Part shown: piece by piece, positions 55,734-61,104 of the stretch | How the letters are laid out: the number at the start of each line of letters is the position of its first letter | How positions within the stretch are numbered: the first letter of the stretch is position 1 | Assembly: GCA_035650475.1 (NCBI GenBank) | Contig: DASRHP010000012.1 | Span: 236,059-300,058, forward strand | Source: Candidatus Binataceae bacterium | GTDB taxonomy: Bacteria; Desulfobacterota; Binatia; Binatales; Binataceae | DNA length: 64,000 nt | Direction: 5' to 3' | Notes under the pieces: model-generated | What the model saw: the letters and a program-made list of their open reading frames with translations, nothing else | Told to the model about the DNA's origin: nothing | Databases searched by the model: none | Program-made: the position numbers and the translations under genes

Positions 55734-55989
55734 GGGGAGCGCTTTCGGCGCCCAGGCGCCGACGGTCCTGACGCGCTCCGCCCACGCGCCCAAAGGGTGG
55801 AGCGCGCGTCGCCCGCTTTCCTTCAATAGCGCCCAGAGCCGGCGCGCGCGAGTGGCTATCGCAGCCGCTCGCGCGCCCGCGTCGTATTCCGGCGCTTTGG
55901 CATTCTTCATTAGTGTGCCATAGCTCGAAAGCCAGCCCTTGTCCGACGCGCGGAGCAGCGCACGTTGGATTCCGCCCAGGAGGGAACCG

Positions 55990-57231
55990 ATGGCTGTCTC
56001 GACGAAGACCGTAACCGTCACCACCGCCGACGGCGGCAAGTTCGCAGCTTACCTGGCTTTGCCGGAAAGCGGCGGCGGGCCGGGGCTGGTCCTGCTCCAG
56101 GAAATTCTGGGCGTCAACCGCCATATCCGCGAGCTCGCCTGTCGCTACGCCGAGGAGGGCTACGTCACGATCGCGCCGGACCTGTTCTGGCGGATCGAGC
56201 CCGGCGTCGATCTGGGCTATACGGAGGCCGAGCTCAAGCGCGCCTTCGATCTCTACGCGCGTTTCGACGCCGATCAGGCGGTGAAGGACATCGCTGACAC
56301 GCTCGCCGCGCTGCGCTCGCTGTCCGAGTGCAACGGCAAGGCGGCGGTACTGGGCTTTTGCCTGGGTGGCATGCTCGCCTATCTAACGGCGGCGCGATGC
56401 AACGTCGAGGCGGCGGTGAGCTACTACGGCGTGGGAATCGAAAAACGTCTGGGCGAGGCGCGCGCCGTGCGCTGCCCGCTAGTGATGCATTTCGGCGAGG
56501 CCGACGAGTACGTGCCGGCCGCCGCGCGCGCGGCGGTCGCCGAGGCATTTTCCGAGCGCGACGAAACCGAGATCTACACCTACACGGGTGCCGGCCACGG
56601 CTTCAACAATCCGGTGCGCCCCAACTACGACCGCTTCGCCGCCTCGCTCGCGCATTCGCGCACGCTGGGAGTGCTGCGGCGCGCGATCGGCCCGCGCTTC
56701 GATTTGAGCGCGCTGTGGGAGCGGCATGCGGATCTGGAATTCAAGTACCGCGATGCCGACGCGACGATGGCGACGATGGTGGAGCGGCCGTACGTGAATC
56801 ACGTGCCGACGATGACCGGCGGCATTGGCCGCCAGGAACTCCATCGCTTCTACAAGCACCACTTCATTTCCAGGCTTCCCAAGGACACCAGGATTGTTCC
56901 GATCTCGCGCACCGTGGGTCCCGATCGGCTGGTGGACGAGATCCTGCTGTGCTTCACCCACGACACCGAGGTCGATTTTCTCCTCCCCGGTGTCGCGCCC
57001 ACCGGCAAGTACGTCGAGATCCCGACCGTCGCGATCGTGCAGTTTCGCGGCGACAAGCTCGTTCACGAGCATATCCACTGGGACCAGGCGACCGCGCTGG
57101 TCCAACTCGGCCTCCTCGATCCCAAAGGGCTGCCCGTCGCCGGTCACGAGACGGTTGAAAAACTGTGTGACGAAAGCCACCCTTCGAACACTCTGATGGA
57201 GCGCTGGAAGGAGAGCGAGGGAAAAGGCTGA
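55990..57231 (+). CDS. Dienelactone hydrolase fused to a SnoaL-like (NTF2-fold) domain
   Basis: This is a 413-residue fusion. Residues 1-235 are a dienelactone hydrolase domain with Glu38 in LLQEILGVN, nucleophile Cys124 in LGFCLGGMLA, Asp172 in GEADEYVP and His203 in GAGHGFNNP, the complete catalytic set. Residues about 250-400 are an NTF2-like/SnoaL domain (ELHRFYKHHFISRLP, VDEILLCFTHDTEVDFLLPG). DLH opens lactones in aromatic degradation; the second domain may bind a ring product. ATG 55990 follows CAGGAGG. Confidence 0.88.
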   Translation: MAVSTKTVTVTTADGGKFAAYLALPESGGGPGLVLLQEILGVNRHIRELACRYAEEGYVTIAPDLFWRIEPGVDLGYTEAELKRAFDLYARFDADQAVKDIADTLAALRSLSECNGKAAVLGFCLGGMLAYLTAARCNVEAAVSYYGVGIEKRLGEARAVRCPLVMHFGEADEYVPAAARAAVAEAFSERDETEIYTYTGAGHGFNNPVRPNYDRFAASLAHSRTLGVLRRAIGPRFDLSALWERHADLEFKYRDADATMATMVERPYVNHVPTMTGGIGRQELHRFYKHHFISRLPKDTRIVPISRTVGPDRLVDEILLCFTHDTEVDFLLPGVAPTGKYVEIPTVAIVQFRGDKLVHEHIHWDQATALVQLGLLDPKGLPVAGHETVEKLCDESHPSNTLMERWKESEGKG

Positions 57232-57720: not shown

Positions 57721-58596
57721 CTAGCCCGAGTGGGGCGCGCCGTCGCCGTCGCGATGGTTGGCGCGGCGCGCCGCGCGCAGCGCAAGCCGCATCATTGCCG
57801 GGATAAAATCCGGCCGCGGCAGGCGTGGATCGAACGCCGCCATCCAGCGCTCGTTCTCGGCCAGACACACCTCGGCAAATCGCGCGAAGCTCAGATCGCT
57901 GCCGCAAATCCGTGCCGGCGCCTGGATCACGAAGTCGTCGGCCTTGTCCTGCACGCCGCCCGCCACCATCCGGATCGCCGTATGCATACGGCCCAACGCC
58001 TGTATCGCTACCGCCGCCGCCCGGCGCATCATGAACCACGGCCGCACGTAGGCGGGCAGTCTGCGCCCGGTGTAGGCGGCCCAGTTGTGGAAAAAGAAGA
58101 TGTGGCGCGCCTCCTCGGCGATCAGGCCCTCGAAGATCTCGATCAGCGAAGGCGGAAAGAAACGCGCGTCGGCGGCGAGCTTGAACAGACCGAAGGCGAA
58201 GAAGATGTCGAACACTTCACCATAGCCCATCCGCATGAAGCCCCATTCAGGATCACGCGGCGCGTACGGCGCCGGCTCGGGCACCTCGATTCCGTAATGC
58301 TCCATCAGGCACTCGAAGAGCGCGGCATGGCGCTCCTCCTCGTAGGCCTGGATCGCGATCGCCTCGCGGACTGTGGCGTCGCGCTCGGCCTCGACCATCA
58401 GACGGATGCGCCGGGTGGCGATGCGCTCGGTGGTGAGCGCCTCGTTCCAGAACGGCATCGCGCGCACCCGCGCGAGGTCGTCGGCTTCGAGTTCCGGCCA
58501 TCGCACGTCGCGCGCCTCATAGCTTCGAAAGGTGTCGACGAACTGCTGACACATCAGATCCCGATGTTCGCTGCTGCCCAAACGCAGGTCTGCCAT
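57721..58596 (-). CDS. Ferritin-like diiron protein
   Basis: This 291-residue helical protein has two ExxH motifs, E87ERH90 in AYEEERHAALFE and E162ARH165 in IAEEARHIFFFHNW, typical of ferritin-like diiron oxidases. The helix order resembles small diiron N-oxygenase-like or aldehyde-deformylating relatives. No named enzyme is assured. It is divergent from the rhodanese gene. Confidence 0.8.
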   Translation of the reverse strand: MADLRLGSSEHRDLMCQQFVDTFRSYEARDVRWPELEADDLARVRAMPFWNEALTTERIATRRIRLMVEAERDATVREAIAIQAYEEERHAALFECLMEHYGIEVPEPAPYAPRDPEWGFMRMGYGEVFDIFFAFGLFKLAADARFFPPSLIEIFEGLIAEEARHIFFFHNWAAYTGRRLPAYVRPWFMMRRAAAVAIQALGRMHTAIRMVAGGVQDKADDFVIQAPARICGSDLSFARFAEVCLAENERWMAAFDPRLPRPDFIPAMMRLALRAARRANHRDGDGAPHSG

Positions 58597-58873: not shown

Positions 58874-59284
58874 ATGCCGCGCAGGCTGAAAAAGACGGTC
58901 AACGAACTGGTGGCCGAAGCTGAAACGGAAATTCAGACAATCGACGCGCAGCAGGCGCTCAAGCTCAGGGACAATCCCAATGTAGTGCTGGTGGACCTTC
59001 GCGACATCCGTGAGTTGCAGCGCGACGGCCGCGTGCCCGGCGCCTTCCACGCGCCGCGCGGGATGCTGGAGTTCTGGGTTGATCCGGAGAGCCCCTACTA
59101 CAAGGAAATCTTCGGTTCGGGCAAGCGTTTCATCTTTTTCTGCGCGGGCGGACTCCGCTCGGCGTTGGCGACGCAGACGGTGCAGCGGATGGGCCTGGAG
59201 CCGGTCTGCCACATCCGCGGCGGCTTTCGCGCATGGAAGGATGCCGGCGGTCCGGTCGAGATGCCCGAGAAAAAGCCGGCGTGA
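58874..59284 (+). CDS. Rhodanese-like sulfurtransferase
   Basis: This 136-residue single rhodanese domain has active-site Cys90 in FIFFCAGGLRSALA, with DLRDIRELQRDGRVPGAFHAP and GGFRAWKDAGGPV. It transfers sulfane sulfur, possibly to a thiol. The 277-base upstream region (58597-58873) is AT-richer but shows no clear promoter. The start is ATG 58874 with GGAGGAA. Confidence 0.92.
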   Translation: MPRRLKKTVNELVAEAETEIQTIDAQQALKLRDNPNVVLVDLRDIRELQRDGRVPGAFHAPRGMLEFWVDPESPYYKEIFGSGKRFIFFCAGGLRSALATQTVQRMGLEPVCHIRGGFRAWKDAGGPVEMPEKKPA

Positions 59285-59320: not shown

Positions 59321-59926
59321 CTACGGATTTTGGTCGAGCTGGCGGCGCAGCAACTCGATCATCCGCTGCGCGATGACTTTGGGTGGATCGCCGCCTGGAC
59401 GATACCAGACGTGTGACCAGTTAAGCCCGCCGAACAGCAGCAGACGCAAATAGCGGCGGTCGGCGCCGGCGGGTAGCGGCAGCGCCTCGATGAGAGCGCG
59501 GAAACGCGACTCGTAACGATCGCGCAGGGCGAGCAGGCGATCGGCCACGGCCGGCGCCTCCTGCGGCAGCACGCGAATCATCACCTGCGTGTAATCGCTG
59601 AGTTCGAGCAGCGCCTCCAAGTGTGCGGCGCATCCGGCCTCCAACCGCGTCCACGGATCGCTGGCGCTCACGACCGCGGCCTCGACCCGCGCCGCTATAT
59701 GACGCAGCCCCTGCTCGTACACCGCCAGGAGCATCTCGTCCTTCGACGGAAAGTGGTAATAGATCGAGCCCGACAGCATCCGCACCTCGCGCGCAATGTC
59801 GCGCATTGAGGTCGCGTGATAGCCGCGCTCGCGGAAGAGCCGCGCTGCCGCGTCGAGCAGCTGCTGGCGGCGATTGTCCTGGCGAGGTGCGCGCTGGGCG
59901 GCGTTGGGGGAACTGGGAGCGGCCAT
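59321..59926 (-). CDS. TetR-family transcriptional regulator
   Basis: This 201-residue regulator has the HTH LLDAAARLFRERGYHATSM with MRDIAREVRMLSGSIYYHFPSK. Its C-terminal half is a ligand-binding helical domain. It is 52 bases downstream of the diiron oxidase gene on the same strand. A dyad operator at 61059-61072 overlaps the promoter of that gene, which points to autoregulation. It starts at ATG 59926 behind AGGA; a longer extension is not TetR-like. Confidence 0.93.
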   Translation of the reverse strand: MAAPSSPNAAQRAPRQDNRRQQLLDAAARLFRERGYHATSMRDIAREVRMLSGSIYYHFPSKDEMLLAVYEQGLRHIAARVEAAVVSASDPWTRLEAGCAAHLEALLELSDYTQVMIRVLPQEAPAVADRLLALRDRYESRFRALIEALPLPAGADRRYLRLLLFGGLNWSHVWYRPGGDPPKVIAQRMIELLRRQLDQNP

Positions 59927-59978
59927 CGGTCCTGGGGACAAACTTACCCGATGCCCGCGCCCTTTCCCATAGCCGCGC

Positions 59979-61007
59979 TCAGGCTGAAGCGGCCGCGGCG
60001 GCCTGGCCGTAGGTGCGGCCGTCGGCATTGGGGTCGAATCCCAGCGAGGCAAGGTGCGATTTGATGCGTTCGCTTAACAGACCGACCTTGGCCATGTTGC
60101 CGACGACTTGCTGATGCATCTCGCGGCGGAAGAGCTGGCGGAATAAGGCCTGCTCCGTGCCCTTGGCCGCCTCGACTCGGTAACGCTTGATCCCCTCGAT
60201 CTCGGAGGGGCTGAACCCCACCTTCTCGTAGACCTCGGTGGGGAACTGGCCGGTGAGCACGAGCTTGAGCGCTTCCTTGGAGAAGTCCTCGACCTCGTTG
60301 CGCTCGGCCTCGGTGAGCTGAGCGATCTGCTCGGGCAGGCTGAGCACGCCGAAGCCCATGTGGCGCGACTCGTCGGACAGGATGCGGCGGCAGACCTCGC
60401 GCAGCAGCGGGTCCTGCGAGCTCTCAGCGAGCATGCGGAAGAGCGAAACGGCGAGCGTCTCGGCGACGAGCTGGAGGCCAATGGTCTTGATGTACCACTT
60501 GCCACATCCGATGAGCTGGTCGAAGAGCTCCTTGAGATTGGCGGTCATCGGATAGATGCGGTCGCCGAGCTTCTCCTTGAGGTAGCGCGAGAGGACCTCG
60601 CTGTGGCGCGCCTCGTCAACCACCTGGGTGGCCATGAAAAATTTCGAGTCGGTCGTCGGCACCATCTGCACGAGCTGGCTGCACGCGAGCGCCGCGCCGG
60701 CTTCGCCGTGCAGCAGCTGCGAGAGCCGCCACGCGGAGAATTCGATGTTGAGTTCGTTGCGCCGGCGCACATCGAGCTTGTCCCAGTAGGAGCTGCCGTA
60801 GGCATCAATCAGGCCATCGTGGAAGACGCCGCGCTCGAGATCGACCTGCATGTCCCACGGGATGTCGCGGGAGACGTTCCACTGGTCGCGCTTGGCGTTC
60901 TCATACAGCCTGCGCATGTCAGGCGCGTGAACGTCGTAGTCGCGCTCGTAGACGGTTTCGGTGAGGCTCGTGATGGTGTGGCGGGTGGGGCTATACATCT
61001 CGGCCAT
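59979..61007 (-). CDS. Large diiron (ribonucleotide-reductase-like fold) oxidase
   Basis: This 342-residue four-helix-bundle protein carries a full diiron set: Glu102 (HGEAGAALA), Glu132/His135 (DEARHSEV), Glu183 (VAETLAVSLF) and Glu213/His216 (DESRHMGFG). That spacing is R2/AurF-like. The reaction is unknown; families of this kind make N-oxides, hydrocarbons or hydroxylated lipids. It has a near-consensus promoter and a TetR operator upstream, and the TetR gene follows it in the same operon. Confidence 0.88.
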   Translation of the reverse strand: MAEMYSPTRHTITSLTETVYERDYDVHAPDMRRLYENAKRDQWNVSRDIPWDMQVDLERGVFHDGLIDAYGSSYWDKLDVRRRNELNIEFSAWRLSQLLHGEAGAALACSQLVQMVPTTDSKFFMATQVVDEARHSEVLSRYLKEKLGDRIYPMTANLKELFDQLIGCGKWYIKTIGLQLVAETLAVSLFRMLAESSQDPLLREVCRRILSDESRHMGFGVLSLPEQIAQLTEAERNEVEDFSKEALKLVLTGQFPTEVYEKVGFSPSEIEGIKRYRVEAAKGTEQALFRQLFRREMHQQVVGNMAKVGLLSERIKSHLASLGFDPNADGRTYGQAAAAASA

Positions 61008-61058
61008 CGTCTCGCTCCTTCCGGATACGGGTGCGCGGCGGCATTCCGATCCTTAAAA

Positions 61059-61104
61059 CAAACGCTCGCTTGCTTTTATAAGATCCGTTGCCCGCGAGTG
61101 TCAA
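61059..61104 (-). promoter_or_regulatory. Promoter with overlapping TetR-type operator for the diiron-TetR operon
   Basis: On the minus strand TTGACA (61104-61099) and TATAAA (61080-61075) are separated by 18 bases. Immediately downstream, the dyad CAAACGCTCGCTTG (plus strand 61059-61072) has five of six matching half-site pairs around a CT centre, overlapping the expected start point. The operator lies about 51 bases before the diiron start codon. The downstream TetR is the likely ligand-responsive repressor. Confidence 0.65.

Follow-up and report, generated by a model that had tools for sequence, protein, structure and literature searches.

A conserved palindrome, very probably a TetR operator, at the promoter of a predicted diiron oxygenase gene and its downstream regulator gene

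In the 64-kb stretch of DNA from an uncultured soil-type bacterium analysed here (the window), a gene for a predicted ferritin-like diiron oxygenase is followed on the same strand by a TetR-family regulator gene, and a palindrome just after the promoter of the diiron gene is very probably the operator of this regulator, as judged by comparison of orthologous loci. The 16-bp palindrome was present in all 13 orthologous promoters with this TetR gene downstream and in none of the 50 others. We regard it as moderately probable that the two genes form, as a whole, an autoregulated pair of a TetR and an O2-activating diiron oxygenase that responds to a CoA-linked or acid ligand. The original prediction, which was made from the letters of the window, had placed a TetR gene 3' of a diiron gene, and both open reading frames were found with their Pfam domains. 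The features of the locus are as follows.

59321-59926, minus strand: TetR-family regulator gene, 201 amino acids (ATG at 59926, stop at 59321; Pfam TetR_N and TetR_C_24)
59979-61007, minus strand: predicted diiron oxygenase gene (ferritin-like), 342 amino acids (open reading frame, Pfam AurF, six ligands and AlphaFold2 fold)
61015-61020, minus strand: Shine-Dalgarno sequence AAGGAG, 7 bases 5' of the diiron ATG, read from the sequence
61056-61071, no strand assigned: putative operator, a 16-bp imperfect palindrome, AAGCGAGCGTTTGTTT in the minus-strand reading (promoter alignment and matrix)
61059-61072, no strand assigned: 14-bp dyad CAAGCGAGCGTTTG of the original prediction, which overlaps the conserved operator but is out of register with it
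61075-61080, minus strand: -10 element TATAAA, read directly and aligned with -10-like sequences in relatives
61099-61104, minus strand: -35 element TTGACA, read directly, with an 18-base spacer to the -10

In the mechanism that we propose, a TetR dimer would sit on the 16-bp palindrome three bases after the -10, covering the expected transcription start, and would block transcription of the diiron oxygenase gene, acting by repression rather than activation. As tetR follows the diiron stop on the same strand at a distance of 52 bp, the TetR probably represses itself too, and the two genes would be co-transcribed. A small ligand would release the TetR, most likely the compound on which the enzyme acts, as a CoA thioester or as the free acid. 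The enzyme itself would be a soluble protein of the AurF/R2lox fold whose diiron site, of the 2-His/4-Glu type, activates O2 for the oxidation of an organic acid or acyl-CoA, by hydroxylation, desaturation or in some other way.

Promoter and operator across orthologous loci

The promoter TTGACA-18-TATAAA could be read directly where it had been predicted, and it was missing from the output of the promoter scanner because the scanner demands T as the sixth base of the -10. For the 14-bp dyad that had been claimed right after the -10, the existence of a dyad stood and the register did not, the conserved unit being the 16-mer listed above. The corresponding pattern, CAARCGNNCGYTTG, which was written from that very site, had its sole mismatch-free match in the 64 kb at the dyad itself; at two mismatches it had 12 matches in the window as compared with a mean of 17.6 in shuffled sequence. 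Since such near matches are no commoner than chance, the window alone is no proof of the dyad, and the proof is supplied by the comparison. The 14-bp register was dropped, as the relatives place the conserved palindrome in the other one.

In the alignment of the 13 TetR-linked promoters the conserved element is AAGCAAGCGTTTGTTT-like, and the family consensus of the 16-bp palindrome is AARCAARCGYTTGYTT. The window copy, which is located at G000:C12:297114-297129 in genome coordinates and separated from the -10 by three bases, is one position off this consensus, with five of its eight pairs complementary. The flanking promoter DNA is mostly unconserved except for the -35 and -10 region; 12 of the 13 promoters have TTGACA at a distance of 24-31 bases before the operator, and the thirteenth has TTTACA. 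The TetR-linked promoters scored 21.4-27.5 with a matrix built from the sites (13/13), while the others scored at most 11.1 (0/50 reached 20). As this matrix was trained on the 13 sites, leave-one-out gives the fair figure for them: each site then came first in its own locus, with scores of 19.3-27.2, and a matrix from the other 12 sites ranked the window 16-mer first of all positions in the 64 kb (20.8, with the next at 12.8). The count of 13 and 50 leaves aside seven of the 73 sequences that are under 49% identity and three with short upstream DNA, and a TetR-linked copy in G020 without upstream DNA stands outside the 13. Six of the 50 other loci have less than 800 bp downstream, so that a TetR gene could lie out of sight there, and the 13 promoters, all from a single bacterial family, are not independent of each other. 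A palindrome at the regulator's own or an adjacent promoter, as expected for TetR regulators, was present in the first set and absent from the second. The original prediction had been made to depend on the presence of the dyad upstream of homologous operons, and it was found wherever the TetR gene follows and was absent elsewhere; such phylogenetic footprinting gives good support to the predicted TetR control through a dyad right after the -10.

The regulator gene and the site also seem to be gained or lost as a unit. The host family has 11 TetR-less rows among the 66 of the enzyme tree, and these make up two separate groups, one of eight rows (L019, L021-L026 and L052, the last on a long branch whose exact place is unsure) and one of three (L017, L018 and L020), which is nested in a clade with 11 TetR-linked rows (support 99/99 for the clade and 88/77 for the exact place inside it). 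Since both groups are also without the site, the TetR gene and the operator have changed jointly on two or more occasions; these two joint changes are our own reading of the tree, as the label count of the program compared other groups. Both states occur in genome G037, where the TetR-linked copy (L011) has the site and the copy that lacks a TetR gene (L052) does not.

A related palindrome accompanies a relative of the regulator next to a different gene. In genome G115, a TetR with 50% identity has a cupin gene (Cupin_7) in front of it instead of a diiron gene, and the cupin promoter has TATACT followed by CAACCAAGCGGTTGGTTG, with the palindrome AACCAAGCGGTTGGTT 86 bases before the cupin ATG. 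The matrix score of 18.7 is the top of this 3.6-kb locus, where two other places reach 16.5 and 16.2, and when the 400 bp upstream were shuffled base by base 5000 times, two of the shuffles reached it. It therefore seems to be the TetR, and not the diiron gene, that the palindrome accompanies. It is very improbable that the palindrome belongs to another regulator or is an idle promoter feature, linked to the TetR by shared ancestry only, for although all 13 sites come from one family and a promoter may be passed on along with the genes behind it, the 16-mer is conserved where the flanking DNA mostly is not, TetR and site are jointly absent in two separate groups, and both are found at the unrelated cupin gene.

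Two loci carry a weaker second palindrome, CGAGCGCTTG, about 110 (L034) and about 80 bases (L038) upstream of the enzyme gene; it overlaps the -35 TTGACA and is possibly a second operator. In the Rokubacterial orthologues L056, L065 and L088, a divergent TetR gene of another type lies right upstream of the enzyme gene, and the cluster table places one beside the enzyme gene in L063 as well. Near these divergent genes a good palindrome, GAGTTCAGCTTCTGAACTC, was found in L056 only, after the promoter. TetR control may thus have arisen more than once.

Targets, neighbours and possible ligand of the regulator

The TetR scored 73.6 bits for TetR_N (cut-off 24) and 57.3 bits for TetR_C_24. At an identity of at least 59% it was present in 14 of 116 genomes, the own genome included, all from the same family, and it adjoins the enzyme gene in every one of these 14; beyond them, the 116 genomes gave the 50% relative in G115 and other matches at 30-35%. 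Among 395 genomes drawn from the phylum, a match at E <= 1e-28 was found in four, each of which belongs to the window's family. The closest named relatives of the host genome are MAGs filed as Candidatus Binataceae, Deltaproteobacteria or Proteobacteria.

The host's own genome (3.8 Mb) has no good second copy of the predicted operator: pattern AARCNARCGYTTGYTT had one mismatch-free place, the window operator, and at one mismatch three further places, as compared with four matches of the reversed control. A search for a regulon in 41 genomes of the family found the 13-base core about as common as the control. The simplest reading is that the TetR would be a local regulator with one evident target. 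One local target is compatible with the substrate as the inducer, and also with the product or a generic acyl-CoA in this role; that the inducer is the substrate of the enzyme, as originally supposed, is a fair guess.

Several neighbourhoods bear on the nature of the substrate. Acetyl-CoA hydrolase/transferase genes adjoin the enzyme gene downstream in L045, L048, L049, L050 and L090 and upstream in L087, and family III CoA-transferase genes are near it in L046, L047 and L081, the neighbours in L045 and L049 being identified by sequence cluster only; all these stand beside TetR-less relatives, not beside TetR-linked genes. The upstream neighbours in the window are genes for an enoyl-CoA hydratase and a short-chain dehydrogenase (Pfam), and among TetR-linked loci the hydratase is directly upstream in the window's genus only. 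Among distant relatives of the enzyme, one from Streptomyces (30%) is located among AMP-binding, acyl-carrier and thioesterase genes, and one from Rhodococcus adjoins a ferredoxin gene. Other loci have unrelated neighbours, e.g., cytochrome oxidase genes in L052. The solved sequence relatives of the TetR in the PDB include DarR (E 5.1e-32 in a profile search), KstR2 (chain 4w97, E 3.3e-17) and a FadR-type "Fatty acid metabolism regulator protein". Taken together, the CoA-transferase neighbours and these relatives hint at a CoA-linked acid, or more broadly at an acyl or CoA-linked compound, as the substrate, and they give no more than a hint.

It is possible, if clearly less probable than the mechanism proposed above, that the TetR senses a general signal, such as a long-chain acyl-CoA or a membrane-lipid cue, and not the substrate of the enzyme, with the regulation otherwise as described. 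DesT and FadR, which are fatty-acid TetRs, would be the model. DarR and the "Fatty acid metabolism regulator protein" among the closest solved relatives, as well as FasR and FadR among the NCBIfam matches (far below the cut-off), would suit such a signal, and the pairing of a TetR relative with a cupin gene leaves room for a ligand other than the diiron substrate; but a general lipid regulator is expected to have several targets, while the site is not repeated, its counts in the own genome and the 41 family genomes being about those of the reversed-pattern control. A literature search for DesT operator papers found none; DesT has a table entry in the accessible part of PMC13176608.

On the reading of a locally acting TetR that responds to the enzyme's own compound, we tentatively suggest that the enzyme may be one of a so far unstudied subfamily of AurF-fold oxygenases, stand-alone and of the 2-His/4-Glu type, in Binatota, Rokubacteria and Chloroflexota, which would oxidise a CoA-linked organic acid and would be paired with a one-target TetR that senses this substrate. 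If this is true, the TetR would be a natural substrate sensor and could be used for finding the substrate. Proteins of this fold are common and many are without a known substrate; a regulator that apparently has one enzyme to serve, and whose operator is placed to the base, would let the substrate be sought directly by a reporter-based inducer screen, with no need to cultivate the organism. The accessible text of the Binatota genome paper (PMC8262859) has TetR once and diiron and AurF nowhere, and among titles and the beginnings of abstracts we found no paper on such a TetR-diiron pair, which is no proof of absence.

Three further genes of the window were noted. A rhodanese-domain gene (58874-59284, plus strand) is convergent with tetR and is found in 11 of the 14 TetR-linked loci, so the neighbourhood is partly conserved. 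The gene at 57721-58596 (minus strand) encodes another small protein, in which an ExxRH-type motif occurs twice (as EEERH and as EEARH) and which is likely a ferritin-like diiron protein; it scored 17.4 bits for AurF, under the cut-off, and had no match in NCBIfam. At 55939-57231 (plus strand), a dienelactone-hydrolase domain (DLH, 152.1 bits) is followed in frame by a SnoaL-like stretch (SnoaL_2, 23.1 bits, below the cut-off of 27), an apparent fusion.

Fold and ligand set of the enzyme

The six diiron ligands that had been assigned to the enzyme (Glu102, Glu132/His135, Glu183 and Glu213/His216) were right at every residue and are invariant in 56 of 56 aligned proteins, as are D131 and D212 beside them. 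The alignment consists of the window protein and 55 of the 73 locus sequences, after identical proteins were merged and L076, which has an internal stop, was excluded. The arrangement E...ExxH...E...ExxH in a predicted helical bundle is that of ferritin-like diiron oxidases and oxygenases. The window protein scored 57.3 bits for the Pfam family AurF (cut-off 29.6) and 31.5 bits for Phenol_Hydrox (cut-off 24.4); AurF was matched by all 56 members at E up to 0.001, and 39 of them additionally matched the methane/phenol hydroxylase family. An AlphaFold2 model from the 56-row alignment had a mean pLDDT of 89, and its comparison with solved structures gave Z scores of 22.7 for CmlI, 22.6 for AurF and 22.0 for R2lox, which are tied within 1. 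By predicted fold and ligand set, the enzyme would work as a ferritin-like diiron oxygenase.

In the accessible part of PMC12101540, the AurF-type N-oxygenase has seven ligands, with HxxDExxH as its second motif, and the 3-His/4-carboxylate site is described as largely unique to N-oxygenases, most diiron hydroxylases being of the 2-His/4-carboxylate type. By this motif AurF's extra His would fall three residues before D212, at position 209. There 52 of the 56 proteins have Ile, the other 4 have Val and none has His, so that the enzyme is not an AurF-type N-oxygenase by its ligand set. The comparison with AurF that the original prediction called for thus holds for the fold and fails for the seventh ligand. 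A 2-His/4-Glu hydroxylase, desaturase or oxidase appears likelier than an N-oxygenase. That the enzyme is nevertheless an AurF/CmlI-type N-oxygenase on an aryl or alkyl amine is very improbable: the AurF match above the Pfam cut-off and the place of CmlI and AurF at the top of the fold list point that way, but R2lox ties with both, the third His is replaced in all members, 39 of the 56 also match the hydroxylase family, and of the neighbouring genes run against Pfam none looked amine-related.

We likewise consider it very improbable that the enzyme is an R2lox- or ribonucleotide-reductase-like radical or oxidase protein, perhaps with Mn/Fe, and not a small-molecule oxygenase. The tie of R2lox structures with AurF in Z and the weak pick-up of R2lox and R2 sequences by the enzyme profile would fit such a protein, but the NCBIfam R2lox score is 32.2 bits against a cut-off of 194. 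By spacing alone, positions 178 and 105 may be the places of the Tyr-Val cross-link of R2lox. At position 178, five residues ahead of E183, 41 of the 56 proteins have Leu, 10 have Thr, 5 have Glu and none has Tyr, and position 105 is Ala in 56 of 56.

The enzyme had zero matches in phage records. Six plasmid records have relatives at 28-34% identity, which are too distant for assignment of a function; four of these plasmid regions were opened, two of them with gene tables. A contig filed as Klebsiella pneumoniae (L055) has an enzyme that is 57% identical to that of the window and most like those of Binatota, and it is probably a mis-binned or mislabelled metagenome contig.

Comparison with known systems

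KstR2, the TetR repressor of steroid-ring catabolism, is a sequence relative of the TetR (4w97, see above), and its published 14-bp palindrome, given as AnCAAGnnCTTGnT in the accessible part of PMC3068626, resembles the operator consensus found here; the site of L016 fits it exactly, and the window site departs at two of its fixed positions. The KstR2-3 signature, [ED]-[DE]-[RM]-N-[RK]-[QE]-Q-R-K in the accessible part of PMC13176608, was absent from the TetR sequence when compared by eye. KstR2 also has a regulon, whereas the TetR here has one evident local target. Since the signature is lacking, the TetR is not KstR2, nothing about its ligand follows from KstR2, and there is no ground to presume a steroid. 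The DarR- and FadR-type regulators are the best solved sequence relatives, with at most about a third of the positions alike.

On the side of the enzyme, the arylamine N-oxygenases AurF and CmlI (PF11583) have the same fold (Z 22.6-22.7 over 266-286 residues), the DExxH motif twice and the Pfam family match in common with it, and they differ in the seventh ligand, a His at the place of residue 209, and in sequence, with 14-15% identity. The bacterial multicomponent hydroxylases differ by their partner subunit, none of which was seen among the window neighbours given to Pfam, and R2lox differs in that the enzyme stays far under the equivalog cut-off of its NCBIfam family. R2lox and the multicomponent hydroxylases share with the enzyme the six-ligand 2-His/4-carboxylate type, to which R2lox adds the similar fold (Z 22.0) and the hydroxylases the Phenol_Hydrox match above cut-off. 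The pairing of a TetR with an enzyme gene is itself of a known kind, and its regulatory logic is ordinary.
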